In this document: positions 9,413 through 54,195 of the stretch, one piece after another
How positions within the stretch are numbered: position 1 is the stretch's first letter
How the letters are laid out: the number at the start of each line of letters is the position of its first letter
From: Candidatus Chloroploca sp. Khr17
GTDB taxonomy: Bacteria > Chloroflexota > Chloroflexia > Chloroflexales > Chloroflexaceae
Direction of reading: 5' to 3'
Length of the DNA stretch: 64,000 nucleotides
NCBI RefSeq assembly: GCF_004138165.1
Contig: NZ_RYFF01000028.1
Location: 1-64,000 of the forward strand
The notes under the pieces: generated by a model
What the model was told of the DNA's origin: nothing
What the model saw: only the letters and a program-made list of their open reading frames with translations
Databases searched by the model: none
Position numbers and translations under genes: made by a program

Positions 9413-9642
9413 GCTCCCTATTCTACCACCTCAGCGCATCATCAGTGGTAGATAGAATCGAAAAGATCTGCGCGTGGCACCTACGTCCCTCCATCCTGCT
9501 CTGGTCTACACACCCGTGGACGTACCCGTAGGGGTGAAGCAGCCCATGCGCATTCCTCAACCGCCACGCCCTGCTCATCGCTGCTGCGGCTTTCATTGGC
9601 TTGCGGGCGTTTGCGCGCAATGCGGCAGGGCGAGCGATCGCC

Positions 9643-36802: not shown

Positions 36803-39800
36803 GCCCAACCCTCCAGTGCGGATTTCTTTGTCTTCGAAGCTTATGGATTGCGCGGCAACGGGCGACGAGTAGGGTGTTTCAATCCGCAGTGCGGATTTCT
36901 TTGTCTTCGAAGTCTCCACTTCCAGGGCATCAGGACGATCAGAAATGGGGTTTCAATCCGCAGTGCGGATTTCTTTGTCTTCGAAGCCGGGCGAGCGGAC
37001 AGGCGCTTGAGGGCAGTTGGCTAGTTTCAATCCGCAGTGCGGATTTCTTTGTCTTCGAAGCGTACAGGCACACTACCGATGCTTGCGCATTGACATGTTT
37101 CAATCCGCAGTGCGGATTTCTTTGTCTTCGAAGTGCAACAGAATCCGGCGTGCCATTTCTTCAATCAAGTTTCAATCCGCAGTGCGGATTTCTTTGTCTT
37201 CGAAGGCCCATCAAAGGGCGTGGATGCGGAGCCTAGAGTCGGTTTCAATCCGCAGTGCGGATTTCTTTGTCTTCGAAGTGGGCCTATAACAGTAATGCTC
37301 CTGCTCCTCTGCAGTTTCAATCCGCAGTGCGGATTTCTTTGTCTTCGAAGTCAGCATGCCGCGCTCACGACATTGATCAATCGCAAGTTTCAATCCGCAG
37401 TGCGGATTTCTTTGTCTTCGAAGGCGAACTCCTGTAGTATAAGAACGACCCTCTTTGCGAGTTTCAATCCGCAGTGCGGATTTCTTTGTCTTCGAAGGCC
37501 AGTGTTTACGAGGTGTCAAAGAAGAAGCTGGACGTTTCAATCCGCAGTGCGGATTTCTTTGTCTTCGAAGAGGTACGAACCCCCCCCATAATTGGGTCTT
37601 CCGAACGTTTCAATCCGCAGTGCGGATTTCTTTGTCTTCGAAGTCAGCATGCCGCGCTCACGACATTGATCAATCGCAAGTTTCAATCCGCAGTGCGGAT
37701 TTCTTTGTCTTCGAAGCTGTTGCGCCGCCGTCGCCCAGGGCCCTTGCCACAGGTTTCAATCCGCAGTGCGGATTTCTTTGTCTTCGAAGTAGAGTGGGTT
37801 TTATACGCACCGACACTGTATCTGTTTCAATCCGCAGTGCGGATTTCTTTGTCTTCGAAGGGCCTCAACGTACGATCTCAGAAAGTACATTGATAGGTTT
37901 CAATCCGCAGTGCGGATTTCTTTGTCTTCGAAGCCACAGCGTCGCACGGAACCATTCGAGCCCGTCCCAGAGTTTCAATCCGCAGTGCGGATTTCTTTGT
38001 CTTCGAAGCAGGCAGAAGAGCAGCGACCAGAGAGCAGACATGATGTTTCAATCCGCAGTGCGGATTTCTTTGTCTTCGAAGTAGAGGAACTATCGGCCCG
38101 CCTTGAGAGGGAAAAAAGTTTCAATCCGCAGTGCGGATTTCTTTGTCTTCGAAGTGGCACGAACCGCACGGATCGTTAAGCGGGTCAAGTTTCAATCCGC
38201 AGTGCGGATTTCTTTGTCTTCGAAGCACACCTGTCGAAGTCACACGCCCAACGTTGCTTGGTTTCAATCCGCAGTGCGGATTTCTTTGTCTTCGAAGGGG
38301 CAAGCGTGGCGGAGTAAGCGCCACGGGAAGGATGAGTTTCAATCCGCAGTGCGGATTTCTTTGTCTTCGAAGTCAGTGGTTGATGATTTAAAAAACTGTA
38401 CAATTGGTTTCAATCCGCAGTGCGGATTTCTTTGTCTTCGAAGGAGTGGCGCTTGCAGATCCTCAACAAACTGCTTGCCGTTTCAATCCGCAGTGCGGAT
38501 TTCTTTGTCTTCGAAGTGCACAAACCAAGTTCAGCTTCAGGCGCATCAAACAGTTTCAATCCGCAGTGCGGATTTCTTTGTCTTCGAAGGCAGGTGATAG
38601 CCTGCCGTGGCCGCCAGCGCCCCAGTTTCAATCCGCAGTGCGGATTTCTTTGTCTTCGAAGTGACGGCGCAGATTGCGTCCGCTCGGGCCGCAGGCGAGT
38701 TTCAATCCGCAGTGCGGATTTCTTTGTCTTCGAAGAGCGGTTCCGCCATCGCCATTGGCACCTCGGGCGGGTTTCAATCCGCAGTGCGGATTTCTTTGTC
38801 TTCGAAGGAGCACCATCCTCAGTACGGCGCTGAAGGGCGTCAAGTTTCAATCCGCAGTGCGGATTTCTTTGTCTTCGAAGTACGTCGGTCGCAGTATCCC
38901 TACCCTGGCACCTCAGGTTTCAATCCGCAGTGCGGATTTCTTTGTCTTCGAAGCCTTCGTGCCCTTCGCCCCTTCAGCCTTCCACAGGTTTCAATCCGCA
39001 GTGCGGATTTCTTTGTCTTCGAAGGCGGTTGTTGGCGGATGCGGTTGCTGCGTTTCGTCAGGTTTCAATCCGCAGTGCGGATTTCTTTGTCTTCGAAGCC
39101 AATCCCACCAATCCCACGGGCACAGCCTCCATTTTGTTTCAATCCGCAGTGCGGATTTCTTTGTCTTCGAAGGTTGCTGATCTCGCTTGTTTCACTGAGG
39201 TAGAGATAGTTTCAATCCGCAGTGCGGATTTCTTTGTCTTCGAAGTCAAAGGCCAGGAGGGCCGCCGCTACCCGTTACTCGGTTTCAATCCGCAGTGCGG
39301 ATTTCTTTGTCTTCGAAGTCATTTCCGCAACCTCCTCGCGTTCGGTGTCACGTGTTTCAATCCGCAGTGCGGATTTCTTTGTCTTCGAAGTAGCAGCCCG
39401 CTGCGGAACCGAGATCGTTTGAGCAAGGTTTCAATCCGCAGTGCGGATTTCTTTGTCTTCGAAGGCTCAATCCCTTCGGGCCGGTTCAGGTAGTAGTGAG
39501 GTTTCAATCCGCAGTGCGGATTTCTTTGTCTTCGAAGGCGGCGCTTTCCGCTAATCGAATGCCTGTCACAAACAGGTTTCAATCCGCAGTGCGGATTTCT
39601 TTGTCTTCGAAGTCAGCAGTCGGGACAGGCTTGTCAAACGAAATGGGCGGTTTCAATCCGCAGTGCGGATTTCTTTGTCTTCGAAGTACGTTGGCACGGG
39701 CGGATCACCGTAGACGGTAGCGTTTCAATCCGCAGTGCGGATTTCTTTGTCTTCGAAGCAGGTCAGGCTAGCGCCTGTAGCGCCTAGAGCGTGCCGTTTC

Positions 39801-42686
39801 AATCCGCAGTGCGGATTTCTTTGTCTTCGAAGTTTTCGAATCTCCGCCGGATTCGAACGAATAGCCTTGCTGTTTCAATCCGCAGTGCGGATTTCTTTGT
39901 CTTCGAAGCTTTCAGCATGTGTCTCTGGTATGTAATGCAGCCGAGAGTTTCAATCCGCAGTGCGGATTTCTTTGTCTTCGAAGCTGTCAAGTCAAGCGCC
40001 ACAAGCGAGAATCCTTCTTGTTTCAATCCGCAGTGCGGATTTCTTTGTCTTCGAAGTAGACCTACCTGGTACGGCTACCAGGTCTCTAGACCGTTTCAAT
40101 CCGCAGTGCGGATTTCTTTGTCTTCGAAGTCGATGCATCATTTGTTCTTGCCAACATGGCGATGAGTTTCAATCCGCAGTGCGGATTTCTTTGTCTTCGA
40201 AGACATACTAGCTTCAAATGATGCTAGCTTTTTGCTGTCGTTTCAATCCGCAGTGCGGATTTCTTTGTCTTCGAAGTCGCTGGATCTGATTCCTTCACCC
40301 ATCCGAGAGAATGTTTCAATCCGCAGTGCGGATTTCTTTGTCTTCGAAGCTGACGGCTGGCGCTTCACCTTTGCTGACGAACCGCGGTTTCAATCCGCAG
40401 TGCGGATTTCTTTGTCTTCGAAGCTGGAGCGGCGTCGTTGGCATATTGACAAAAGCCGCGTTTCAATCCGCAGTGCGGATTTCTTTGTCTTCGAAGTGTG
40501 GTTACTCCTTCCTACATACCAGATCGCTCCTAGTTTCAATCCGCAGTGCGGATTTCTTTGTCTTCGAAGACCCTGTCCACCCATCAGCAGCCAGATTGGT
40601 ATTAAGTTTCAATCCGCAGTGCGGATTTCTTTGTCTTCGAAGTCCTTGCTTGACTTCTTCTCTCTGTGACTAGTATACGTTTCAATCCGCAGTGCGGATT
40701 TCTTTGTCTTCGAAGGGTGAACGAAACCTCCATCCTCGATCTCTGAGCGTAGTTTCAATCCGCAGTGCGGATTTCTTTGTCTTCGAAGGAAGAGTTTGGG
40801 GATGCCAAGCTGCTGGCGGCAATGGTTTCAATCCGCAGTGCGGATTTCTTTGTCTTCGAAGCATTGGACGCCAGAGCTTGAGCTAGAGACTCAGCTCGTT
40901 TCAATCCGCAGTGCGGATTTCTTTGTCTTCGAAGCGCGCCCTAGCAGCCCGAGCAGAAGTTACGCTTTTGTTTCAATCCGCAGTGCGGATTTCTTTGTCT
41001 TCGAAGTGTTCGTAGCGGTGCGAGTCGGCGTGCTCGTTAGGTTTCAATCCGCAGTGCGGATTTCTTTGTCTTCGAAGTGCTGCGTTTCACCTGCCGATCT
41101 ATTGGTAAACAACAGTTTCAATCCGCAGTGCGGATTTCTTTGTCTTCGAAGGCGGAGTGACATTGCGACCACCCCGCTGAACGACATGTTTCAATCCGCA
41201 GTGCGGATTTCTTTGTCTTCGAAGGATGCTGCCCGCGCAAAACGCCGTCACGTTGCGCCGGTTTCAATCCGCAGTGCGGATTTCTTTGTCTTCGAAGGGC
41301 TCGGCAACAAGTCCCGCGACGCTCGCACAATCGTTTCAATCCGCAGTGCGGATTTCTTTGTCTTCGAAGTGCTCGATCTGGAAGGTTTGCGCCGCAAAGG
41401 CATTGTTTCAATCCGCAGTGCGGATTTCTTTGTCTTCGAAGCACGTATGAATATAGCAACAGCCTGATTGAGTACGTGGTTTCAATCCGCAGTGCGGATT
41501 TCTTTGTCTTCGAAGCCGGGCGCTGAACTGGCGGTCAATGCCTTTGCGGCGGTTTCAATCCGCAGTGCGGATTTCTTTGTCTTCGAAGGAGGTTGGCGCG
41601 GTACACCGTTGCCAGATCCGGATCAGTTTCAATCCGCAGTGCGGATTTCTTTGTCTTCGAAGGACAGCTTCACCTGCTCACTTGCCAGTTGCTGCTGCGT
41701 TTCAATCCGCAGTGCGGATTTCTTTGTCTTCGAAGGGCTCAAAGCGGCGGCCATCGGGCGCCGTCGGGTCGTTGTTTCAATCCGCAGTGCGGATTTCTTT
41801 GTCTTCGAAGACGCCAGTGCCGAGAGCATTGCGACGCGCCTGCTGTGTTTCAATCCGCAGTGCGGATTTCTTTGTCTTCGAAGCCTTTGCAGGGACGGAC
41901 TATTTGCACTTATTCTAGGTTTCAATCCGCAGTGCGGATTTCTTTGTCTTCGAAGTCAGAAAGCCATGAAAGCACTGTACCAATAATGGCTAAGTTTCAA
42001 TCCGCAGTGCGGATTTCTTTGTCTTCGAAGGAATCCATCGTATGGCGGCTATTGGTATGCGTATTTGTTTCAATCCGCAGTGCGGATTTCTTTGTCTTCG
42101 AAGCCAGGATCGCGCCGCTGCCTGACGCCAGCGAACGCACGTTTCAATCCGCAGTGCGGATTTCTTTGTCTTCGAAGTGTCGTGTCCTTTGTCTATCAAT
42201 TACTTGCTCTTCAGTTTCAATCCGCAGTGCGGATTTCTTTGTCTTCGAAGGCATTGCCTTCTCAACCGCCGACTGGCGACAAAGCCGTTTCAATCCGCAG
42301 TGCGGATTTCTTTGTCTTCGAAGGACCTACGGGGCATTCAGGTGCAATTAGGCCATAGCAGTTTCAATCCGCAGTGCGGATTTCTTTGTCTTCGAAGCGA
42401 ACCGCTAACCAAAAAGGCCATAGGCGCTATCGAGTTTCAATCCGCAGTGCGGATTTCTTTGTCTTCGAAGGCGTTACCATCCGCACCTTAGAGGGCGAGC
42501 GGGAGTTTCAATCCGCAGTGCGGATTTCTTTGTCTTCGAAGCTGTTTAGATATCCTCATTGCGCGATACGAAGCGAGTTTCAATCCGCAGTGCGGATTTC
42601 TTTGTCTTCGAAGAGCTCGAACGTGCCACGCCTGAGCGCTTGAAGCGCTGTTTCAATCCGCAGTGCGGATTTCTTTGTCTTCGAAG
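36803..42686 (-). CRISPR. Type I-D CRISPR array, 81 repeats / 80 spacers
   Basis: The 37-bp repeat reads (plus strand) GTTTCAATCCGCAGTGCGGA... and ends ...TTTGTCTTCGAAG. I counted 81 copies from 36803 to 42650; spacers are 34-39 bp, mostly 36. On the minus strand the repeat begins CTTCGAAG, carries the hairpin ATCCGC-ACT-GCGGAT and ends ATTGAAAC, the usual crRNA 5' handle. The leftmost copy (36803-36839) is degenerate in 11 bases at its plus-strand 5' end, marking the leader-distal end. A leader with promoter is at the right. Two spacers are identical (37351-37386 and 37644-37679). The long open frames across the array are translation artefacts of the repeat. Confidence 0.99.
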
Positions 42687-42893: not shown

Positions 42894-43187
42894 CTAAAGA
42901 ATAACCGTTATGGGATCGTGTGGAGGCGAACCTCCAATGGTGATCGCTTTACTCTGGCATGCTCCACAGAGTGGGTAGAGCCTGATGCTGTCGCGGTCTT
43001 TGTTGAGGTGTGGCGCGAGTTTTGCCTGTAGCTCGAGCAGTTGGCGCCGTGTTAGCCAACATTCAAAGAGAGAGTATTGAGTCCACGCTCCGTATCCACA
43101 AAGGGTTTTATGGATTTTGGTACGCCGTTTGTTGTCAGGTATGTCGTAGGCGATGATGTAGAGCATGCTTTCGCTGCTTATTGCCAT
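42894..43187 (-). CDS. cas2: CRISPR-associated endonuclease Cas2
   Basis: A 97-residue protein from the ATG at 43187 (AGGAAGTC upstream); the longer open frame to 43349 overlaps cas1 and is not needed. 'MLYIIAYDIPDNKRRTKIHK' has the ferredoxin-fold first strand and the conserved Asp of Cas2. 'YGAWTQYSLFECWLTRRQLL' follows, then 'DSIRLYPLCGAC'. It forms the spacer-integration complex with Cas1. It is the last cas gene, adjacent to the leader. Confidence 0.95.
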   Translation of the reverse strand: MAISSESMLYIIAYDIPDNKRRTKIHKTLCGYGAWTQYSLFECWLTRRQLLELQAKLAPHLNKDRDSIRLYPLCGACQSKAITIGGSPPHDPITVIL

Positions 43188-43272: not shown

Positions 43273-44310
43273 TCATCGTACCGTAAAAGGCACGTAATTG
43301 GCAATTTCGCCCTGAGCATGTTTGGCAAAGATGCGTGCCTGTAGTTCAATGCAGCGTCGGTAACTGACCTTGTAACCGAATTGGGGGTGCTGGATCTGTT
43401 CGCTAAGCCGTGCTTCGATCTTTTCGATGTAGCTTCGCCGTGCGCTGTCGCTTAGTCGGTAGGCTCCTAGCTCGTTGGCAAAGTCGCCAGGGGTGATTTG
43501 GCCGGTGTTGAGCATGGTGACGACGACTGAGTCAATAATGATGGGGCGAAAGGTTTCGACCAGATCAAGCGCTAAGGCTGGTTTGCCAAAGCCGGGTTGG
43601 TGCAAGACGCCTAGCCCTGGGTCGAGCCCGACGCTGTGGATGAGTGAGACGACCTGGTTGGTCAGCACGGTATAGCCGAAGGAGAGCAGTGCATTGACCG
43701 GGTCAGTTGGTGGGCGTTTGACGCGCCCAGGAAAGCGCCATTCGCCTTTAAGGATGGCTTCAAAGACACTATAGTATGCGGCACTGCCACTTCCTTCCAG
43801 ACCCAACAGCGGCCCAAGCCCATGCATGCGGTCACTTGTTATCTCGGGTGGCTTTAGGCGCGCTAGTTCGCGCAGGCAGCGTTTGATCGTTTGCGCCGCA
43901 TCCTGTAGGTTTTCGCTTGTTTCGCGTCCACGCGCATAGCGAAGCAGCAAGGTGCGCATGTTGAGGAGCTTGCCAGCAACACATTGGCGTGCGACTTCAA
44001 AGCTGCGCTCTACGTCGCGGCAGAGAGCATACTGCGCCAGACGTACCCCACTATTTTTGCCCCAGTCGGCGAGCAAGGCACCATGCGATTTGCCACGCGC
44101 ACTCATATAATGAATGCCAATGCGTCGTTCAAGGAGTGCATGCAATGCGGGCGTGGTCAGGGTGATATCGCCCAGGACAATGACTTGCTCGATTTTGTTC
44201 AGCGGAACGCGGATCACTGTCCCGTTTTTGCCGCCAGCCGCCTGGACGCGCAAGGCTTCGCCTTCGAGTTTGACCAGACTGTATTGCTCGGTTAGATATA
44301 AGGTCGCCAT
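43273..44310 (-). CDS. cas1: CRISPR-associated integrase Cas1
   Basis: A 345-residue integrase from the ATG at 44310, with GGTGGAG 6 nt upstream. The N-terminal beta domain (MATLYLTEQYSLVKLEGEAL, VIVLGDITLTTPALHALLER) is followed by the helical catalytic domain. The metal ligands are Glu in 'LLGLEGSGSAAYYSVF', His in 'GVLHQPGFGKPALALDLVE' and Asp in 'PIIIDSVV'. With Cas2 and Cas4 it selects and inserts new spacers at the leader end. Confidence 0.96.
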   Translation of the reverse strand: MATLYLTEQYSLVKLEGEALRVQAAGGKNGTVIRVPLNKIEQVIVLGDITLTTPALHALLERRIGIHYMSARGKSHGALLADWGKNSGVRLAQYALCRDVERSFEVARQCVAGKLLNMRTLLLRYARGRETSENLQDAAQTIKRCLRELARLKPPEITSDRMHGLGPLLGLEGSGSAAYYSVFEAILKGEWRFPGRVKRPPTDPVNALLSFGYTVLTNQVVSLIHSVGLDPGLGVLHQPGFGKPALALDLVETFRPIIIDSVVVTMLNTGQITPGDFANELGAYRLSDSARRSYIEKIEARLSEQIQHPQFGYKVSYRRCIELQARIFAKHAQGEIANYVPFTVR

Positions 44311-44338
44311 CAGCATCTCCACCCCTTCACCAAGAATT

Positions 44339-44959
44339 TCAACCACGCTCCTCTCCTTCCCATCCGGTCACGTCGGCCAGTCGCCGCAGTTCATCAGGCA
44401 GGCAGAGCGGCTCAAGTGAGCAGTCACGGCATTTCGCACGCTTGTCAGTTGGCGGCGGCAGCACACCCAGCGCTGCGAGGCGATGTGCCTCAGCGGTGAG
44501 TTGCTCAACCTCAGTACGCAGTTCACAAGTAAAGATAACTTCTTCCCGTCGGCGCGTGGCAAACGAAAAAATATATCCTTTTTCGATCTTTGTACCAGTG
44601 CGCTCTTCAAGACACATTGCTTGGGCGCAAAGCTGAATATGATCGTTGCGCCAACGGCCCGGACGACCTTTTTTATACTCGACCGGATAGAGTGTACCAT
44701 CCTTGAACTCAACCAGATCGCAAAAGCCAGCCACGCTCAAGCGCTCGCTCCACACATAGACGCGGCGTTCTTGCACGGCTTCGCTAAGCCAGGTCGTGCC
44801 GCCGAGGTCAACACCCTGATGGCGTAGCAATCCTTCGACGACATGTTCGTTGTACAGCATTTCAGCCTGAATAAACTCATAGCCGAAACGACGTGGGCAA
44901 TACGCCAGCGCATTGAGCATCGCCAACGGAATATGCTCAGGCGGCCCAATTATGCTCAT
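44339..44959 (-). CDS. cas4: CRISPR-associated exonuclease Cas4
   Basis: A 206-residue RecB-like nuclease with an iron-sulfur cluster. It has Cys in 'NALAYCPRRFGYEF', 'FCDLVEFKDG' (Asp ligand), 'PVEYKKGRPG' (E-x-K motif), 'QLCAQAMCLEE' (QxxxY-like motif with the usual Tyr not evident) and the C-terminal cluster 'CRDCSLEPLCLP'. It trims prespacers and helps define PAM orientation. GAGAGG precedes the ATG. It overlaps the cas6 stop by 4 nt. Confidence 0.95.
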   Translation of the reverse strand: MSIIGPPEHIPLAMLNALAYCPRRFGYEFIQAEMLYNEHVVEGLLRHQGVDLGGTTWLSEAVQERRVYVWSERLSVAGFCDLVEFKDGTLYPVEYKKGRPGRWRNDHIQLCAQAMCLEERTGTKIEKGYIFSFATRRREEVIFTCELRTEVEQLTAEAHRLAALGVLPPPTDKRAKCRDCSLEPLCLPDELRRLADVTGWEGEERG

Positions 44960-45783
44960 CGTATTGCCTCTCGCTCAAATAAGCGGCGACACAACCCCAT
45001 GCCACGTGCGGTCTTCATGCCAACACCAAGAAAAAGGGCTGCATCGGCCAGCAAACAGAGCAAGCGCGCCTGCGCGGGGTCACGCGGCAACTCATAGGCA
45101 CAGACACCAACAAAGCCCTTTTGCGGCCCTTTGCCCAGATCAATCTCGGTTGACTCAGCGTGATACCGCGTCACAACCGTCTCATTGATTGCCAGCTTGA
45201 GCAACGCTAGATCAAGCTCAAGCGGCGCAGGAGCCAATTCGTTCCACCGTTTCGCCAGACTAGGAAAGATCAGGGCCGGATCGGGCAACAGCGCAAGGCG
45301 AGGTCGGCCATCGGCGCGGCTACCCTGACCGATCACGGTTGCACTGGCAAATTCCAGGATAACCGTATGGGCTGGCTCAGCACGCGAATGAAGCTCGGCA
45401 AAGCTACTATAGCCAGCCCAGGAATGGCCCTTCGGAGCAGGCGTGCCAATGACATCGCCAAGGCGCAGACGAGCCTGACCAAGCCGCAACGGAGCCTCAC
45501 CGGGCATCTGGCGCAACAACGCCTGCACAAATGGCTGGAACAGCTCCGCCTGCAACAGCGAAACCCGCAACTCCACGGGCACGCGCTGACCACGCGACAG
45601 CAACGCAACCGTATACGGCTTACTTTTCGCTTCAGCGTGCAACTGCACCGCCAATTCTGGCTCAACCTGGCGCACCAGATCCAGAAACAGCGCCTGCGCG
45701 CCGTGACCCTGCGGTCGCAGCGACGACCCGCCCTCGGGGTAAAGTGTCATAACAAAAGCGTAGAGGTCGGGAAAGTCGTTCAT
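44956..45783 (-). CDS. cas6: CRISPR RNA endoribonuclease Cas6
   Basis: A 275-residue RAMP protein that cuts the pre-crRNA at the base of the repeat hairpin. The C-terminal glycine-rich loop 'FLGVGMKTARGMGLCRRLFE' is diagnostic. 'GHSWAGYSSFAELHS' lies in the middle region. Candidate catalytic His residues are near the N-terminal domain (HGAQ at about 27 and QLHAEAKSK at about 48). It sits between cas3' and cas4; in standard I-D loci it follows csc1 directly. Confidence 0.92.
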   Translation of the reverse strand: MNDFPDLYAFVMTLYPEGGSSLRPQGHGAQALFLDLVRQVEPELAVQLHAEAKSKPYTVALLSRGQRVPVELRVSLLQAELFQPFVQALLRQMPGEAPLRLGQARLRLGDVIGTPAPKGHSWAGYSSFAELHSRAEPAHTVILEFASATVIGQGSRADGRPRLALLPDPALIFPSLAKRWNELAPAPLELDLALLKLAINETVVTRYHAESTEIDLGKGPQKGFVGVCAYELPRDPAQARLLCLLADAALFLGVGMKTARGMGLCRRLFEREAIR

Positions 45784-45792
45784 TGTAAATTC

Positions 45793-48165
45793 CTATAAAA
45801 TGATAGCATCACACGATGCTTGACGATCACGCATCTGAAAATGGCCGCGAAGAAGTGCATCAGCATGCCAGACAGCAGAGCCGATCACAGCACTGTATAA
45901 AACACTACTTCCATCAGCAAAAATAATATCAATAGGAATACTATATATTGACGTATTACGTATAGAGGAAATCAGGGCACCTAAGTCATCTTTTGGGACA
46001 ATTAACAACGTTAAATAGAGTTGATATATAGCTTCACGCAACGTAGGTAACATAGGTTCATAGTCGCCGCCTTTTTGTTTAGCGGCAAGTTTCAGTCCAC
46101 ATAACGCAACAGGTCTACGACAGTACAGACGCTCGAAGCCACTTTTCTCAATTGATCCAAGCCCAGTTTCTTCAAGCTTAAGTGAAAATTCAATATTCAA
46201 ACGGGCTGTACGACGTCGCTGAAGTTGTATATAGAAATCACCTTTTAAATCAGTATTGCCACAGCGAAGAAAATCGCCTCGATCAGCAAAGACATGAAAG
46301 TGATAATTTGCAATCAAATGGAGAATATCATACGTATTAAACATCTGACTGGAGAAGAGACGATCAGGATCATAAATTACAGCGACAGGGCCACTAAATG
46401 AGTCACGGAAAGCAAAGAGCGATTTAGTCAGATAATACTGACTCAAGATGAATTTATTTAATCCAGCGCGACGAGTTGGGTCATTAACAACTGCATCGAT
46501 AAACTCATGCGCATATTGCGGAGTGCATGAGATTTGCTTGCCAGCAGACGATTGAAGCTGTGAGAAATAATTCGCCAGATTCGCCACTAGTGTTTTCCTA
46601 TGCCAGCCATTTTTGTCCCATTTCTCGCTATCTTTTGCAAGCACCCATCGCTCACGCGCCTCAAATGAATAAGCAAAGATCTGTAGACTTTTGATTCCTT
46701 GCCGATTATTTGGTGCAAAGACGCTTCTCATACGTTCGACAAGCCGTTCGATCTCCTCGGTCTGTTGCTCTGGTGAAAGCATCTGGCTTAGTTTGTAGAC
46801 AGGATAAAAGGCCTCAACCATACCGTGAATGCGCATATACGACCCAAGTGAATGTTTGGGTGGCAGCGTATCAAGTCCATTGAGTACATCGCGAAAGCTA
46901 CGACGTGATAGAGTTTGCCCATCATATATTTGCAGTGATTGGGCTACATCTAGACTTACCAGTGCCACGGCATGGCTGAGATGATAGCATTCGGGCTTTC
47001 CCAGAATTCGCCCTGCGCGACCAATTCGCTGGATCAGTTCATCACGATAGCGACACTCACACACTATGAAGTCAATATTTTGACGTGGTTTATCGCGATC
47101 AAAGTTATAGCCGATATCTACCACTGGTGTAGCCAGCAACAATTGATGGCGCAATGCCTGTATTCGTTGTGCAGATGGCTCTGGCCCGGTAATACGGCAT
47201 ATATCCAACCCTCGGAGCAGATCAAACACTTCATTAATCCGCGCCAGACTGTTGCTGATAATCGCACCATCATAATTAGCCTGTAACCACTGCTCCAACT
47301 GAGAGCGATGCTGGCTGAGCCATTCGTCAAGTGATGAACTAGAGATCTCTAGCTCAAGCTCTGATAAAGTCTGTACTGACTGATAAGCACCGCTTTCATC
47401 AACTTCATTGTCAGGACTGACATGAATCCAACGATTACCAAGGACAGTTGTCAAGTATGACTCAACCTGGGGATTGGGTGTTGCCGATAGAATGCAAACT
47501 TTGCGGCCTTGATCAAAATAACCAAACTCCTGCCAGAAAGTCAGGAAGCAGAGAAATGAGACCAGTTGTTTCTCATCATAGTAATGAAACTCATCAATGA
47601 CCACATACCAAAAAGTCTGGAGCGTCGCGATAAAGAGATTACGCCTATCGTGGTTTCCATAGTAAAAGAACAGCATGTAATGGAAGATGTCCGGGTTGAC
47701 GACGATAATAAATGGCAAATTGCGCTGATCATCGGGAGAAATTCCAAGCTCACGACAAAACTCTAGTGGATTCTGCAAGAGTCGATAAAGTTTCTCGCCA
47801 TTTCGATCAGGTATAGCTAGATCTACTCCAAGGCTTCTTATAACCTTCGCATTGACTTCGATTATTCGAAAGCACAGGTTATGTTGAGTGACAAAAGCCT
47901 GAATATCATCAACATGCTGGTGGATAAGCGCGTTTGTGGGAGCAATAAAGAGCACATTATGATGATGGCCGTTTATTGCGAAAAGATGAAGTAAGCTGGC
48001 CCGTGTCTTCCCAGTGCCTGTGTTGTAGCTATTCACGACCAACGAGGCCTGTTCTAAAGCGATTGCTGTACGCAGTTGATGGTAGAGCAACTGTGTTCCT
48101 GGCAGCGGCCCGAATGCCTCCTTGGGAGCCAGTTTTTCAAATTGGGCGCTAAGATGAATAGTCAT
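45793..48165 (-). CDS. cas3: Type I-D CRISPR helicase Cas3' (no HD domain)
   Basis: A 790-residue superfamily 2 helicase. Motif I is NTGTGKTRAS, motif Ia 'VLFIAPTNALIHQH', motif II 'VVIDEFHYYDE' (D-E-F-H), motif III 'CILSATPNP' and motif VI 'QRIGRAGRILGKPE'. No HD nuclease domain is present, as expected for type I-D where HD is in Cas10d. The ATG overlaps the csc1 stop (ATGA). Its place between csc1 and cas6 departs from the usual I-D order, where cas3' precedes cas10d. It is visibly AT-richer than the flanking chromosome, suggesting a different origin. Confidence 0.93.
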   Translation of the reverse strand: MTIHLSAQFEKLAPKEAFGPLPGTQLLYHQLRTAIALEQASLVVNSYNTGTGKTRASLLHLFAINGHHHNVLFIAPTNALIHQHVDDIQAFVTQHNLCFRIIEVNAKVIRSLGVDLAIPDRNGEKLYRLLQNPLEFCRELGISPDDQRNLPFIIVVNPDIFHYMLFFYYGNHDRRNLFIATLQTFWYVVIDEFHYYDEKQLVSFLCFLTFWQEFGYFDQGRKVCILSATPNPQVESYLTTVLGNRWIHVSPDNEVDESGAYQSVQTLSELELEISSSSLDEWLSQHRSQLEQWLQANYDGAIISNSLARINEVFDLLRGLDICRITGPEPSAQRIQALRHQLLLATPVVDIGYNFDRDKPRQNIDFIVCECRYRDELIQRIGRAGRILGKPECYHLSHAVALVSLDVAQSLQIYDGQTLSRRSFRDVLNGLDTLPPKHSLGSYMRIHGMVEAFYPVYKLSQMLSPEQQTEEIERLVERMRSVFAPNNRQGIKSLQIFAYSFEARERWVLAKDSEKWDKNGWHRKTLVANLANYFSQLQSSAGKQISCTPQYAHEFIDAVVNDPTRRAGLNKFILSQYYLTKSLFAFRDSFSGPVAVIYDPDRLFSSQMFNTYDILHLIANYHFHVFADRGDFLRCGNTDLKGDFYIQLQRRRTARLNIEFSLKLEETGLGSIEKSGFERLYCRRPVALCGLKLAAKQKGGDYEPMLPTLREAIYQLYLTLLIVPKDDLGALISSIRNTSIYSIPIDIIFADGSSVLYSAVIGSAVWHADALLRGHFQMRDRQASCDAIIL

Positions 48166-48923
48166 GGCAGTTTGTCTACTCCAAAATGCATATCAGCTGG
48201 CAGCAAAACGCCACCAGTAAGCTTGTATCCACGACATGCAATACGGGCATTTCGTGCTAACTGAGCAGGCGGCACATTAAGCAGATCACAGGCAATTAGA
48301 CGTACATCAGGCGGCAAATCAGCAATAGTGAGCAAGCCACAAAACCCACTGCTAGCCTCTGCATCTCTGATAAAGTGGTGCTCTGTTGTAATACGTGCTT
48401 TGCTCATAAACTTGCCCAATCGGATATAGCTTGGTAGTGCTACTTCGTTCGTGCTGATAACATAAAATGTCGCTTGGGTGCCAATACCTAGCATACGGAT
48501 GCGCCCTACCTGCGGACGGTTCTCGACCCGAACCTTGCGCCCGCGTTCGCCCTCACGTTCAACAATAAACCATGCAGCAGAGCGTTTTTCAGCCCACGCC
48601 CCATCTGGCTTTGTCACCAGCGCATTGTTGCCCATCGCATACCAATAGGTATCTGGTTGAGCATTAAACCAACCCACTACAAAGCGCGGTTCACCTACAA
48701 TTGCAGCTGGAGTTACGTAGATGCCTCGTTCATTCAATTTGCCTAAGTCAACCTTATAGTGGATGCTACCATCATTAAAATAAGGCGACTGGCAAAATTG
48801 CAAGGCATAGGTTAGCGCATAGTTGCCGATGAATGGCTCGGTTTGGTAGAAGTTGCTGATCTCGCGGGAACTAAAAAAGGTGTTCTCCAGCAGCGTCAGC
48901 TCACAACGGTAAATATGCGGCAT
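48162..48923 (-). CDS. csc1: Type I-D Cascade subunit Csc1 (Cas5d)
   Basis: A 253-residue RAMP protein. The N-terminus 'MPHIYRCELTLLENTFFSSR' and 'FIGNYALTYALQF' are typical of Csc1. The C-terminal half carries 'VALPSYIRLGKFMSKARI' and 'DVRLIACDLLNVPPAQL'. It is expected to hold the crRNA 5' handle and cap the Cas7 filament. AGAGG lies 5 nt before the ATG. It is 8 nt downstream of csc2. Confidence 0.92.
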   Translation of the reverse strand: MPHIYRCELTLLENTFFSSREISNFYQTEPFIGNYALTYALQFCQSPYFNDGSIHYKVDLGKLNERGIYVTPAAIVGEPRFVVGWFNAQPDTYWYAMGNNALVTKPDGAWAEKRSAAWFIVEREGERGRKVRVENRPQVGRIRMLGIGTQATFYVISTNEVALPSYIRLGKFMSKARITTEHHFIRDAEASSGFCGLLTIADLPPDVRLIACDLLNVPPAQLARNARIACRGYKLTGGVLLPADMHFGVDKLP

Positions 48924-48931
48924 GGCAACCT

Positions 48932-49912
48932 CTATGCATTATTTGGAAGACCACGACCATAACTGAGTATCGTTTCGCGCAAATCATTGCGAAGCGTCTC
49001 TTCATTACCATAGAGATCGCCTAATTCTGCGACTATACTGCTCACTGTATCGGCATCAAGCATCGTCACCTGCCCAAGCACACGCTTACGGAGTGCCTGA
49101 GCTGCATCACGCACTGCTTGCACTGCTGTTGTGTCATGCAATGGGAAATCAAGATCAGCGTTGCCACCACGCAGCAGATCATAGCTCTGTTGGGTCAGTT
49201 CCAAGTTACTGAAAAGCTCACAATCGCTGAAAGCAATGCCTACAAGTAGGTTGCGCACCTTTCCGATCCGCGAAGAAATTGCCCCATAGCGAGTAGAGCG
49301 AAGCACATTGCCTAGAGCGTAACGAAATTCACCTGGGGTCAGGTCACGCATTGTCTCAATATCGAGAAAGAGCGATTCGGGCCGAACATATTCATCAGAA
49401 CCCAGCCCCGTCATGCGTTTGCCCTGCTCACTATAGGGCGTACTGTTATCAAAAGGCGCATTAAACATCTTGGTATCAGTAATCAGCTGAGCTGGATGCA
49501 GGCTAAAGGCATCATCAGTGATAATTCGCGAGCGTTGCGCACCGCCGCCACCTGCTGCATACCCGTAAATCATACAATCCATACACTTCTCGCACGGGTT
49601 GTTCGTGTTTAGTGAGCAGACACCGTCCTTAGTAGCAAAGAGCAGATCGAAACGGCGCAACAATTCGCGACCTGTACGCCGTTCAACAGCAGTCTGTTTA
49701 CGCTTACTGATAACTACACGTTGCACTACCGGACTATCGGCATTACCGCCTGCATGTACGAATTCTTTATTGAGTGGTTCACCACTGCCCTCAGTACGAA
49801 AGATTGCTTCAGATTCAACTCGACGAACGATGAGCAGGCTAACGTACTTACCTCGTGGGCTGTTGCTATAGCTCTGGAGCAGGTGATCAGCGTAGCGATT
49901 GAGAGTATTCAT
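48932..49912 (-). CDS. csc2: Type I-D Cascade backbone subunit Csc2 (Cas7d)
   Basis: A 326-residue RAMP protein that polymerises along the crRNA. A zinc-binding-like cysteine cluster 'NPCEKCMDCMIYGYAAGGGG' and 'FVHAGGNADSPVVQRVVISK' match Csc2. 'SLFLDIETMRDLTPGEFRYA' and 'RYGAISSRIGKVRN' fit the palm and thumb of Cas7d. GGGAG lies 8 nt before the ATG. It is 25 nt after cas10d. Confidence 0.93.
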   Translation of the reverse strand: MNTLNRYADHLLQSYSNSPRGKYVSLLIVRRVESEAIFRTEGSGEPLNKEFVHAGGNADSPVVQRVVISKRKQTAVERRTGRELLRRFDLLFATKDGVCSLNTNNPCEKCMDCMIYGYAAGGGGAQRSRIITDDAFSLHPAQLITDTKMFNAPFDNSTPYSEQGKRMTGLGSDEYVRPESLFLDIETMRDLTPGEFRYALGNVLRSTRYGAISSRIGKVRNLLVGIAFSDCELFSNLELTQQSYDLLRGGNADLDFPLHDTTAVQAVRDAAQALRKRVLGQVTMLDADTVSSIVAELGDLYGNEETLRNDLRETILSYGRGLPNNA

Positions 49913-49937: not shown

Positions 49938-52838
49938 CTAGGCATCTCCATTGTCGGCATCGGCGGGAATATTTGTAAGCTCACCTTTATCAGCAGTTTC
50001 ACTAATTTTGCGAGGAATCTGCTCACGCATGTAAAACATGTAAGTCGAACGGAGCAATTTTTCATCGCTCAGTAGACGCGCCGGACTGTTACCATATACA
50101 TTGGCATATATACCAGTGTAAAAAACATCGACGAACTCTTTAATCGCCTCCCACTTGGTACGTCCGGGCTTATAGTGCTCATCAGCAACTCGCTCTAAAT
50201 ACGCAAAAATATCTTCCACAGTCGCCGCCTTTAAGGCTTCCGTATCATGCTCTGTGGCTTTGCTACGCTGCGCAAATTTACGCAAAACTTCATCAAGCGC
50301 TGTCATGAGTGAATGTTTAGTGAGTGTACGACCAATGAGCCGGTGCTTCCATGCAATCTGCGCCAGATGACGCATATGAGTACTAAGTTGCTCCATAAAC
50401 CCTGTTCCTTTGCTATGTGCCAGGCGTTCAACTGCATGAAACACCTCCCGTGATATATTGATCAGCATCCATTCGGCATTGTGAGAATCTCGAGCATGAC
50501 CCTCGATTAGCTTCTCTGTTGCGTAAAAAATTCCAAGTGGATGATAAGCTAGTGCTTCCACTAATGACAGTAGTGGATCATCTTTGCCGCCTCCTGTTTG
50601 CCGTTTGATCGTGTACAGATCTTGCATTTGCTCCCAAAGCAGCTTTAGCGAGGCCTGACCAGTCTTAGGAAACTGATAATAGCTTGTGGCCTCAATAAGC
50701 CCTCGACAAGCTAATGGAGTCATATCAGTTGTCAGATCTCCTATGCTATCCTGACTAAATGGAACCACTGAATTAGCGCTAAGGATCACACGACAACCAA
50801 AATAGCGTTGAAGAATGAGTGCATACTCCAAGGCAAAGAGGAAGCGCTCAGTATCAGTTTTACCCGCCGGATTGAGCGGAAAGATTAACAGGTTACCCAG
50901 CAAGGCTTCAGCATAACTGGGCAGATAGACGCCGAAAGTATGAGGCTTTTCGGCTTTGGTACGAGTCAGCATAGGTGCTGTGATGCGTTGCTCTGTTGTA
51001 TAACGACGCATTGCTCGGTCGCCATCAAGCCAGAGCGCTCGACTATCTTCCCGCTTCAACTCTTTTAGCACTTGTCGCAAACCCTCGATAAACGGCTTGG
51101 TGAAAAAGGTGTACGGATATAAATGTAAGTAGACTGTATGCTCGCCGCGAATCTCTTCATAGCTGAGCCGCTCAACCAGATACTGTGTCTGGCAGAGCAC
51201 ACAGATATTTTTCTTTGGCTCGCCTTGCCCCCCACGCAACCGGTTCGAAAAAGTCTGCACTGAAATATCCGAGCGCACATCCGCTGACATCCAGGGCATT
51301 GTCGGAAAATCATCACTGCACTGAACGCACTGTTTATGCTGATGTGCCACATAGCGCATCAGACTACCCGCATCACTCCCCTCGCGACCCTGTGAACCAA
51401 ACAATGCATGTCGCTCTAGATATGTAGTAAATATTGGTACACGCGGATCATCGCTGGATCTATCAGCAAGCAAGATCTGTCCATCTTTTAACAAATTTGT
51501 CTTGACAATCTCTTCACTCAGAGGCAGATCGCGTGCTAGTACATATGCACGATCCATGCGCGCATCAAAGAAAGCCAGGACGCGACGCTGTTCGGCTGAG
51601 ATTTCGAGTACATCGTAAATTCGCTCCCAGGGTTGTGGGATGGCTTTGGCAAAATGATCGTTCAGGAAGATAAAATAGCTACGAATGAGTTCGCCAATGC
51701 GCAGTTGAGCGTCACTTTGTGCGATGGGATGTCCTTCAAGCAATGCTTCAACATCGGGTACAGCCTCAGGGAACTGAGCAGCGTTTTTGGTAAAACCAGT
51801 TTTCGTTCGCAATCTTGCTTTCTGTGCTAGTTCCTCAGGCTTAAAGGTTCGCCGCTGCACGATGGCATAGATGGCATTCCAGATGTCAGAGAATGAGAGG
51901 CCCAAAGCAAGGCATTTGGCATCGACTTTGATCCCTAGCGGACGAACTTCGATGAATTCATCGAACTTAATACCTGTCATACGTACTAGTTCGTCAACTG
52001 CACGAGCCGCTATGCGCAATCGATCTCCATTATCAATCCGTGGCTCTTTCCCCCGTTGCACCAGATAAACAACTCCTTCAGGATAGATTAAAAGCGGGAG
52101 CAGACCATAACGCTCATTCAACTCTATACTAATTGCATTGTGCAGCATATTGGTTAATGCTCCACGCGATTCGTCGAGACGGTGTGTAAAAAACGTATAT
52201 TGAACTTCATAATTTAATGCAAAAGCATTGAGTTGAGAAAGAAAGCTTTGTTTATGATGTTGCTCATCAAGTGTGTGTGAGAGATCAAGGATGTCAACGG
52301 CTTTAATTAATTGTAATAACGTTAACACTCGCTCAAGCCCCAAACCATAGTGAGCGCTATCACGCACAATTAGAGTCTCACCATGCACTGGTGTATGCCC
52401 TCCATGCCCACGAGCAAGCGTAGTAACATCGCTTAGATACTCGCGATACTGCAAAAAAAACTGATCCAGTCCAAAGCGAGTAATCTGTGCAACTACTTGC
52501 TCAGGAACGGCATCCCGATTTAAACCCTGACTATTGTCCAGAAGCTTATTAATGTCATGAATTGTATAAGCAGTAAAAAGAACTTTTACCTCATGCTCAG
52601 GCAAGCTAAAAAGATGAGCTAGCTGATCCAGTACAAAAATTCCATCAAGAATATGTGCATAGAGACTTTGTCCAAGTTTATTTCCATACTGTAAATACCG
52701 ATCCTCTTTTAAGATTATTAGATGCTGATTTGCCACCATTTTGAGAAAGTCAGTAAGGGTATTAGACTGACTGCGTCCGAGCACAGCGTCGAGCATAGCC
52801 AGCAGATCGAGTTCATCTTGAGGAGGAGGTTTATTCAT
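49938..52838 (-). CDS. cas10d: Type I-D large subunit Cas10d (Csc3) with HD nuclease
   Basis: A 966-residue effector from the ATG at 52838. An HD domain is N-terminal, with H62 (SLYAHILDG), the H94-D95 pair (TAYTIHDINK) and HGGH near 145. Two CxxC knuckles (KQCVQCSDD and ICVLCQTQ) form a zinc finger in the middle. The palm-like region shows no GGDD cyclase motif, as in I-D. This subunit supplies both PAM reading and the nuclease partnered with Cas3'. The upstream GTG at 52880 overlaps a TATAAT box and is not favoured. No strong ribosome site is visible. Confidence 0.94.
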   Translation of the reverse strand: MNKPPPQDELDLLAMLDAVLGRSQSNTLTDFLKMVANQHLIILKEDRYLQYGNKLGQSLYAHILDGIFVLDQLAHLFSLPEHEVKVLFTAYTIHDINKLLDNSQGLNRDAVPEQVVAQITRFGLDQFFLQYREYLSDVTTLARGHGGHTPVHGETLIVRDSAHYGLGLERVLTLLQLIKAVDILDLSHTLDEQHHKQSFLSQLNAFALNYEVQYTFFTHRLDESRGALTNMLHNAISIELNERYGLLPLLIYPEGVVYLVQRGKEPRIDNGDRLRIAARAVDELVRMTGIKFDEFIEVRPLGIKVDAKCLALGLSFSDIWNAIYAIVQRRTFKPEELAQKARLRTKTGFTKNAAQFPEAVPDVEALLEGHPIAQSDAQLRIGELIRSYFIFLNDHFAKAIPQPWERIYDVLEISAEQRRVLAFFDARMDRAYVLARDLPLSEEIVKTNLLKDGQILLADRSSDDPRVPIFTTYLERHALFGSQGREGSDAGSLMRYVAHQHKQCVQCSDDFPTMPWMSADVRSDISVQTFSNRLRGGQGEPKKNICVLCQTQYLVERLSYEEIRGEHTVYLHLYPYTFFTKPFIEGLRQVLKELKREDSRALWLDGDRAMRRYTTEQRITAPMLTRTKAEKPHTFGVYLPSYAEALLGNLLIFPLNPAGKTDTERFLFALEYALILQRYFGCRVILSANSVVPFSQDSIGDLTTDMTPLACRGLIEATSYYQFPKTGQASLKLLWEQMQDLYTIKRQTGGGKDDPLLSLVEALAYHPLGIFYATEKLIEGHARDSHNAEWMLINISREVFHAVERLAHSKGTGFMEQLSTHMRHLAQIAWKHRLIGRTLTKHSLMTALDEVLRKFAQRSKATEHDTEALKAATVEDIFAYLERVADEHYKPGRTKWEAIKEFVDVFYTGIYANVYGNSPARLLSDEKLLRSTYMFYMREQIPRKISETADKGELTNIPADADNGDA

Positions 52839-52865
52839 AGGAGTCTCGTGATAGATTATTACAAC

Positions 52866-52871
52866 ATTATA
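52866..52871 (-). promoter_or_regulatory. TATAAT -10 box upstream of cas10d
   Basis: A perfect -10 hexamer on the minus strand 28 nt before the cas10d ATG. No good -35 element is seen 16-18 nt further up. Confidence 0.4.
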
Positions 52872-53016
52872 GAGGATCACCCAACGCCCGATACGTCTCC
52901 AACTGATGCTGTGAGAGCTTCCAGTCCGGCGGCAAGCGCTCGGCTAGTTTTGTTTCAGCTGCAACCTCTGTCGGATCAGCAAGTTTAGAGTGGACTGGAA
53001 GCGTTGTAATCTGCAT
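52867..53016 (-). pseudogene. 49-codon N-terminal remnant of a second type I-D cas3'
   Basis: A short open frame from the ATG at 53016 to TAA at 52869-52867. It reads MQITTLPVHSKLADPTEVAA and then LPPDWKLSQHQLETYRALGD-PL before stopping. The 'LP..W.LS.HQ..T..AL' pattern matches the region just before helicase motif I of Cas3' proteins, compare 'LPGTQLLYHQLRTAIAL' in the intact Cas3' at 45793-48165. Its position directly upstream of cas10d is the standard site of cas3' in I-D loci. The stop overlaps the TATAAT sequence used by the cas10d region, suggesting a deletion fused the remnant to cas10d. It could also be a short expressed peptide. Confidence 0.6.
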
Positions 53017-53229: not shown

Positions 53230-54195
53230 TTAGGTATATTGTGCAAGGGTGGCGGCACATTCTCTCCGGAGATCATCAACAAGTGATGCTGGTGCTTTGG
53301 CAATGGCATGACGACCAAATGACATAACCCACCGGCGAATTTCGGCTAATGCACCGCTCTGAAAACGTAGGGTCATTGAACCATCGTTGTGTTCTTCGAT
53401 CTGCTGTGTGGGATGCCAGGTACGCCCACGCATGTAGTTCGACTGATAGGCGTCAAACCAGATCTCGATCGGTTCAGCACGATCGCCTCGTTCAGCGAGA
53501 AAACTTGTGTTGAGGTATTCTGCCGGGGAAAACGTGGGATCACGGGTGAAGCGCTCGCTTTTGCACACATTCCAGGCTTCAATTCGGCTGACAGAAAACT
53601 GTCGCATCTGCGTGCGATGATGATCAAAAGCAACAACTTGCCAATTGCCACGAACATTGAATAGATGGTAAGGCTCAATGATGCGCTCTCTCCGCTCGCC
53701 AGTACTGGCCGTAAGATAGAGAACCTTCACCGGCCAGCGTTCCTGCATGGCTTCGAAGAGGGCGAGCAATAATTCAGGATCAACCGTAGACGTTGCTCCA
53801 GGCTGAAAGGTATAATGCTGGGTCAAATCGTTCAAGCTGACCCGTAGCTCGACCGGTAAGCTTTCAGCAAGGCGATCAACAGCGTTGCGGAGTGGTCGTT
53901 CAAAGGCGGTACCTAGATAACGATGAACCAGTTCTACACTGAGGAAAAAGGCCATCAACTCACCCTCACTCATCATCATCGTTGGTAACTGCCAGGCCGG
54001 ATCAGTGTAATAGTAGCCTCGTCGTGATCGATCATATTTGAGGGGCGCATTGAAACGCTCTTGAAAAAAGGCGATGTCGGCCCGGATGGTTCGCTCACTT
54101 ACTTCAAAACGCTGCATAAAACTGGCTACATTTGGATATGCTCCACTGCGAATAGCGGTATCCATCGCAAGCATACGCTCTAGTCGTACAGACAT
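53230..54195 (-). CDS. WYL-domain transcriptional regulator of the CRISPR locus
   Basis: A 321-residue DeoR-like regulator with GAGGAG before the ATG. The N-terminal winged helix (about 1-60) contains 'FMQRFEVSERTIRADIAFFQ'. The WYL domain (about 140-220) has 'IEPYHLFNVRGNWQVVAFDH' (the WYL-equivalent is NWQVV) and 'MRQFSVSRIEAWNV'. A WCX-like C-terminal extension follows (IEIWFDAYQSNYMRGRTWHP). WYL regulators commonly sit upstream of I-D cas genes, where ligand binding controls expression. It lies 10 nt after a small HTH gene. Confidence 0.92.
   Translation of the reverse strand: MSVRLERMLAMDTAIRSGAYPNVASFMQRFEVSERTIRADIAFFQERFNAPLKYDRSRRGYYYTDPAWQLPTMMMSEGELMAFFLSVELVHRYLGTAFERPLRNAVDRLAESLPVELRVSLNDLTQHYTFQPGATSTVDPELLLALFEAMQERWPVKVLYLTASTGERRERIIEPYHLFNVRGNWQVVAFDHHRTQMRQFSVSRIEAWNVCKSERFTRDPTFSPAEYLNTSFLAERGDRAEPIEIWFDAYQSNYMRGRTWHPTQQIEEHNDGSMTLRFQSGALAEIRRWVMSFGRHAIAKAPASLVDDLRRECAATLAQYT

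Follow-up and report, generated by a model that had tools for sequence, protein, structure and literature searches.

A conserved cas3' fragment at the probable seam of an effector-module swap in a type I-D CRISPR-Cas locus of Candidatus Chloroploca

Introduction

The type I-D CRISPR-Cas locus of Candidatus Chloroploca sp. Khr17 raises the question of why a frame of 49 codons, resembling the beginning of cas3', stands in front of cas10d in an operon that holds a complete cas3' at another place. The locus was analysed in a stretch of 64,000 nucleotides (NCBI RefSeq assembly GCF_004138165.1, contig NZ_RYFF01000028.1, positions 1 to 64,000), hereafter the window. An earlier note on this DNA had described the frame as the apparent stump of the original cas3'. 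It had proposed that the helicase was replaced, with the ancestral gene being reduced to a stump and a divergent Cas3' taken up downstream, or else that the gene was duplicated and its first copy disappeared. Shuffling of modules is the generally accepted view of how CRISPR-Cas systems evolve; to our knowledge, the exact seams of such exchanges are seldom seen.

Results

The frame in front of cas10d is a fragment of Cas3'

The frame and its surroundings comprise the following features.

52867..53016, minus strand: 49-codon ATG frame, 5' end of a standard type I-D cas3' and left seam of the probable module swap
52839..52866, minus strand: 28-nt gap from the fragment stop to cas10d, perhaps the decayed tail of the cas3' segment
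53230..54195, minus strand: WYL-domain regulator upstream of the operon, by profile match

The translation of the frame is MQITTLPVHSKLADPTEVAAETKLAERLPPDWKLSQHQLETYRALGDPL and its stop lies 28 nt before the cas10d ATG (52838). The PADLOC Cas3d profile PDLC02028 aligned with residues 1-45 of the frame over profile positions 1-48 of 685 (E 0.0019). A search of 41 genomes from the same family with the 49 residues as query matched the N-terminal 45-48 residues of full-length standard Cas3' in 15 of them, with identities of 63-74% and E values from 1.2e-15 to 3.5e-10, and one other short frame, in genome G001 (84%, E 3.1e-17). No match was obtained in NCBIfam (including TIGR03158), Pfam or PDB. 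In the alignment, the end of the frame falls between the Q motif (LSQHQLETYRAL) and Walker A (TAMTGDGKS); the N-terminal Cas3' region with the Q motif and 15 of 15 invariant positions is present, and Walker A, the DEAD/DEFH box and the helicase C-terminal motifs are absent. The profile match, the matches in 15 genomes and the alignment rule out an unrelated small gene, and they bear out the earlier note in its comparison with the type I-D Cas3' N-terminus up to just before Walker A. Judged by its sequence, the frame is a fragment of the type I-D Cas3' family and not a helicase. Past its stop, the 28-nt gap shows a weak, out-of-frame resemblance to the next cas3' codons (NVVI; P about 0.03-0.06).

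In the predicted structure of a standard Cas3' (genome G003, mean pLDDT 77), residues 1-46 form a beta-hairpin, with strands at 2-5 and 8-12 and a block pLDDT of about 90, as well as the Q-motif helix at 34-44, while the strand preceding Walker A (50-53) lies outside the fragment. The 49-residue peptide itself was modelled with a pLDDT of 74.8, which is of middling confidence; the folding alignment held 11 rows.

Two type I-D lineages differ in the place of cas3'

Standard loci of the family have the gene order cas3'-cas10d-csc2-csc1-cas6-cas4-cas1, and cas3' was verified to lie directly upstream of cas10d in Synechocystis pSYSA, as the earlier note had it. A second lineage, here called variant, has the order cas10d-csc2-csc1-cas3'-cas6-cas4-cas1. 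Within the limits of their flanks, all loci that a model of the variant Cas3' matched in the phylum have this order, and it was also found on cyanobacterial plasmids of Nostoc, Leptolyngbya and Pseudanabaena; cas3' lies between csc1 and cas6 in every examined variant locus showing both neighbours. In the Cas3' tree, standard and variant proteins are split by the longest branch with 100% support, and the intact Cas3' of the window falls in the variant clade. As the position between csc1 and cas6 is native to the variant lineage, no separate recruitment of cas3' is needed in the window. In type I-D systems, the effector genes have been described as shuffled and the adaptation genes and/or cas6 as conserved, with the position of cas3' varying between groups (PMC10212523).

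Whether all loci of the variant order carry a small ORF, as the earlier note had asked, was answered in the negative: a Cas3'-like fragment stood before cas10d in 0 of the 8 other variant loci with upstream sequence. Two variant loci, L033 of genome G022 (39-284, plus strand) and L035 of genome G021 (9449-9631, plus strand), have a small conserved MNENHDAYDQARLL ORF about 120 nt upstream of cas10d, for which we found no clear family and detected no relation to Cas3'. In the same way, no relation to Cas3' was detected for a 55-aa coiled-coil-like protein before cas10d in Pseudanabaena ABRG5-3.

Two further observations were made in the variant loci. Both cas10d and cas3' of G021 (L035 9756-16875) and the cas3' of G022 (L033 5173-7541) are each split over two frames, by frameshifts or assembly errors. 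On cyanobacterial plasmids, a nucleotidyltransferase and DUF86 pair lies within the variant I-D locus or next to it (L104 3253-4124, L105 3108-3999), possibly a toxin-antitoxin pair carried with the CRISPR locus.

The locus of the window is a hybrid of the two lineages

The remaining genes and the array of the locus are as follows.

49938..52838, minus strand: cas10d (csc3), variant lineage; start at ATG 52838, not GTG 52880
48932..49912, minus strand: csc2 (cas7d), variant lineage, by profile matches and locus comparison
48162..48923, minus strand: csc1 (cas5d), variant lineage, by profile matches and locus comparison
45793..48165, minus strand: cas3' helicase, 790 aa, complete, variant lineage, between csc1 and cas6; Walker A NTGTGKT
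45784..45792, minus strand: right seam, 9 nt from the cas3' stop to the cas6 ATG
44956..45783, minus strand: cas6, standard Chloroflexaceae I-D type, by profile matches, identities and trees
44339..44959, minus strand: cas4, standard type, by profile match, identities and trees
43273..44346, minus strand: cas1, standard type, by profile match, identities and trees
42894..43187, minus strand: cas2, start placed by inspection at MAISSES, resembling the cas2 region of G001
36876..42686, unstranded: CRISPR array, 80 exact copies of a 37-nt repeat

The intact cas3' that the earlier note placed between csc1 and cas6 was confirmed. Its 790-aa product scored 184 bits with TIGR03158 (cut-off 69), matched Pfam DEAD and ResIII, and shows the helicase motifs NTGTGKT, DEFH, SATP and QRIGRAGR by inspection. 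The cas6 product scored 51 against an NCBIfam cut-off of 59 and was matched by PADLOC Cas6d.

The effector genes and the remaining genes of the locus belong to different lineages. The window csc2 is 57-61% and csc1 52-55% identical to most variant loci of the same order, compared to 30-43% for both genes with standard loci, and cas10d and cas3' likewise match variant loci. In contrast, identities to most standard loci exceed those to variant loci for cas6 (63-76% against 39-49%), cas4 (72-82% against 56-71%) and cas1 (70-81% against 51-68%). The repeat has the ATCCGC..GCGGATTGAAAC arm of the local standard loci, unlike the repeat of the variant locus L033. The fragment in front of cas10d sides with the standard half, with scores of 128-164 against local standard Cas3' and of 31 against the window's own Cas3'.

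The same hybrid mixture, with the same short frame in front of cas10d, is present in G001, which belongs to another genus of the same family. As G001 is an independent assembly (JAAXUL010000090.1) with the same arrangement, an assembly artefact of the window contig is excluded. The seams are closely similar in both genomes: the left one lies in cas3' just before Walker A, with the G001 fragment ending about 11 nt before cas10d, and the right one leaves 9 nt (window) or 10 nt (G001) between the cas3' stop and cas6. The two effector modules are each other's nearest relatives (cas10d 75% identical, next best 44%). Searches of 158 genomes from the class, of a sample of 400 from the phylum and of contigs of species genomes revealed no further hybrid locus, and viral contigs yielded no relatives, so that the window and G001 are the only two hybrids carrying the frame across the searched genomes.

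The spectrum of identities and the two seams point very strongly to a hybrid that arose by the swap of a whole effector module, cas10d-csc2-csc1-cas3' of the variant lineage. The exchange would have occurred by recombination at conserved sequence in the 5' end of cas3' and near cas6. In G001, cas1 and cas4 group with those of its congener G003, a genome with a standard locus; cas6 clusters with that of a third genus. The G001 locus has thus undergone further recombination, and a full-length gene could have served to renew its fragment. The WYL regulator of the window (53230-54195) has no detectable similarity to the WYL gene before cas3' in the local standard loci and G001, so the upstream flank of the window may have been exchanged too.

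An apparent reverse hybrid was also observed. Locus L046 (G018:C145) has cas10d, csc2 and csc1 of standard type (62-68%), and its cas6 and cas4 group with those of the variant-effector loci of G021 and G022 (bootstrap 83 and 82); its contig begins inside cas3', and the visible part excludes the left seam.

A second swap in the family broke cas3' in the same part

Genomes G039 and G040, of one genus, are 96-97% identical in the DNA of cas6-cas4-cas1 and 91% identical in that of the 3' half of csc1, but their effector genes are unlike. On the left side, the DNA is 84% identical from a point ahead of the cas3' start as far as about codon 67, where the similarity is lost; between the proteins, identity drops from 82% in Cas3' residues 1-66 to 33% in the rest. 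The Cas3' body of G040 is 75% identical to that of G032. In AU tests, a grouping with G039 was rejected for the Cas3' body (p 6e-38) and weakly favoured for the N-terminal part (0.82 versus 0.18). By these comparisons, this is an independent swap, and it broke cas3' on the left in the same 5' region as in the window. The module that came into G040 starts with cas3', which yielded a chimeric but complete gene, whereas that of the window starts with cas10d, which left the old cas3' 5' end orphaned.

G040 and G032 (L036 397-2451, L037 5509-7572) represent a second standard-type effector, with a chimeric Cas3' and a step near Walker A: compared with the local Cas3', residues 1-66 are 67-82% identical and the body 30-33%. 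A breakpoint between G003 and G033 hinted at by GC3 was not confirmed, the pair being about equally similar along the whole operon.

The fragment is conserved at the protein level

Over 43 aligned codons, the differences between the window and G001 fragments comprise 9 at first, 0 at second and 21 at third positions, which corresponds to pS 0.70, pN 0.082 and a dN/dS of about 0.04. The same 30 changes placed randomly gave a mean of 18 amino-acid differences and a minimum of 8 in 200,000 trials, compared to 6 observed. A stop-free frame is expected by chance in 30% of neutral trials, and the absence of stops alone is therefore uninformative. Both fragments keep all 15 positions invariant in the 15 full-length proteins, with 2 and 0 private residues, and the flanks of the two genomes have no alignable sequence before the ATG or after codon ~46. 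The effector modules of the two genomes are near saturation at synonymous sites, and the fragment pair has the lowest pN among all synonymously saturated pairs. The fragment tree does not unite the two fragments, with AU p values of 0.40-0.69 for one shared versus two origins.

Subject to these AU values and to a sample of two genomes, the substitution pattern indicates purifying selection on the amino acids of the fragment. A function deduced from selection needs either one swap common to both hybrids or old swaps; with two separate swaps, each more recent than ~0.05 neutral substitutions per site, the conservation would be a legacy of the complete genes. The similar seams and the nearest-relative modules favour a single swap. 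On balance, we consider continuing selection on the fragment to be probable, and the fragment is probably a retained small protein. Its conservation as a protein in a second genus does not fit the decay that the word stump in the earlier note implies.

Discussion

We favour, with roughly two chances in three, the explanation that an effector module was swapped and that the orphaned cas3' 5' end was then kept under selection at the protein level. The starting point would be a standard Chloroflexaceae I-D locus, cas3'-cas10d-csc2-csc1-cas6-cas4-cas1-cas2, whose effector module was replaced, presumably by recombination, by the cas10d-csc2-csc1-cas3' of a distant I-D lineage. The left joint would have fallen in the 5' part of the old cas3', immediately ahead of the Walker A codons, and the right joint ~9 nt before cas6. 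What remained of the old gene would be its first 46-48 codons, an orphaned frame that opens the operon and keeps a start codon of its own. Selection on the protein sequence, as its presence in two genera indicates, would then have retained the frame. A peptide of ~49 residues, made up of the Cas3' N-terminal hairpin and the Q-motif helix, would be the first product of the operon and may bind a partner that the N-terminus of full-length Cas3' normally touches; as a guess, this could be the HD face of Cas10d or one of the proteins encoded in the standard half that was kept (Cas6, Cas4-Cas1-Cas2).

The most serious competitor, which we consider clearly less probable, is that the fragment is a non-functional left-over of two separate, very recent swaps, or has been renewed by recombination with a full-length cas3'. 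Swaps do recur at this place of cas3' in the family, as G039 and G040 illustrate, and the fragment tree leaves the two fragments ununited. The G001 fragment differs from the congener cas3' by a pS of 0.35, as genus-level divergence predicts, its GC3 is flank-like, and G001 has the upstream WYL gene in common with the congener. However, separate swaps would have to bring in closely related modules at nearly the same two seams, and each would have to be younger than ~0.05 neutral substitutions per site per lineage, whereas the modules are near synonymous saturation and the fragment pair has the low pN given above. It is improbable that the 5' end was kept for the start region of the operon and for translation coupling to cas10d, the peptide itself being inert. 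The fragment is indeed the first frame of the operon and ends 28 nt (window) or ~11 nt (G001) before cas10d, but the constraint lies on amino acids, with 21 of 43 third positions and no second position changed, and the upstream sequence is not conserved between the two genomes.

The explanations of the earlier note, a cas3' deleted with recruitment of a divergent Cas3' downstream or a duplicated cas3' with its first copy lost, retain only a very slight probability. They account for a fragment that is a cas3' 5' end and for a divergent intact Cas3', and part of the helicase replacement stands, namely that the ancestral standard cas3' lay before cas10d and that the working Cas3' is of another lineage. 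The recruitment of the helicase alone does not: all four effector genes are of the variant lineage, arrived together and stand in their native order. Duplication is strongly disfavoured by the 100% split in the Cas3' tree and by the far closer resemblance of the fragment to local standard Cas3' than to that of the window. Effector-gene lineage, variant-locus order and Cas3' tree led us to reject both duplication and the recruitment of cas3' alone.

The window displays the two seams of an exchange between deeply separated I-D lineages, and the second case in the family, with its left breakpoint in the same part of cas3', suggests that exchange favours this site. Should the fragment function as a peptide, its small set of retained residues hints at the contacts of the Cas3' N-terminus. 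Cas3' is reported to interact with Cas10d, the HD domain being the likely dock, and that study goes no further on the contacts of Cas3' (PMC10212523). We put forward only tentatively, and with some doubt, that the Cas3' N-terminal hairpin and Q-motif helix might have become an independent accessory Cas protein, which remains with the adaptation half when effectors are exchanged. This would imply either that the Cas3' N-terminus makes a contact, so far unrecognised, with Cas6 or Cas4-Cas1-Cas2 or that Cas3' recruitment has a regulator of its own.

Comparison with known systems

Compared with standard I-D systems (Synechocystis pSYSA, and Chloroflexaceae loci such as L040), the window has the same gene set, and within the family its cas6, cas4, cas1, repeats and fragment are of the standard type; it differs in having no full-length cas3' before cas10d and in its effector genes, which come from another lineage. 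With the variant-order loci, in full cas10d-csc2-csc1-cas3'-cas6-cas4-cas1-cas2, of Herpetosiphonaceae and of the plasmids of Nostoc sp. UHCC 0302 and Pseudanabaena sp. ABRG5-3, the window shares the lineage and order of cas10d, csc2, csc1 and cas3', whereas those loci have no Cas3'-like fragment before cas10d, and their cas6, cas4, cas1 and repeats differ from those of the window. The process is the same as the shuffling of I-D effector modules already described (PMC10212523), but in the window both seams are located, the left one inside cas3', and the fragment at this seam is conserved as a protein.
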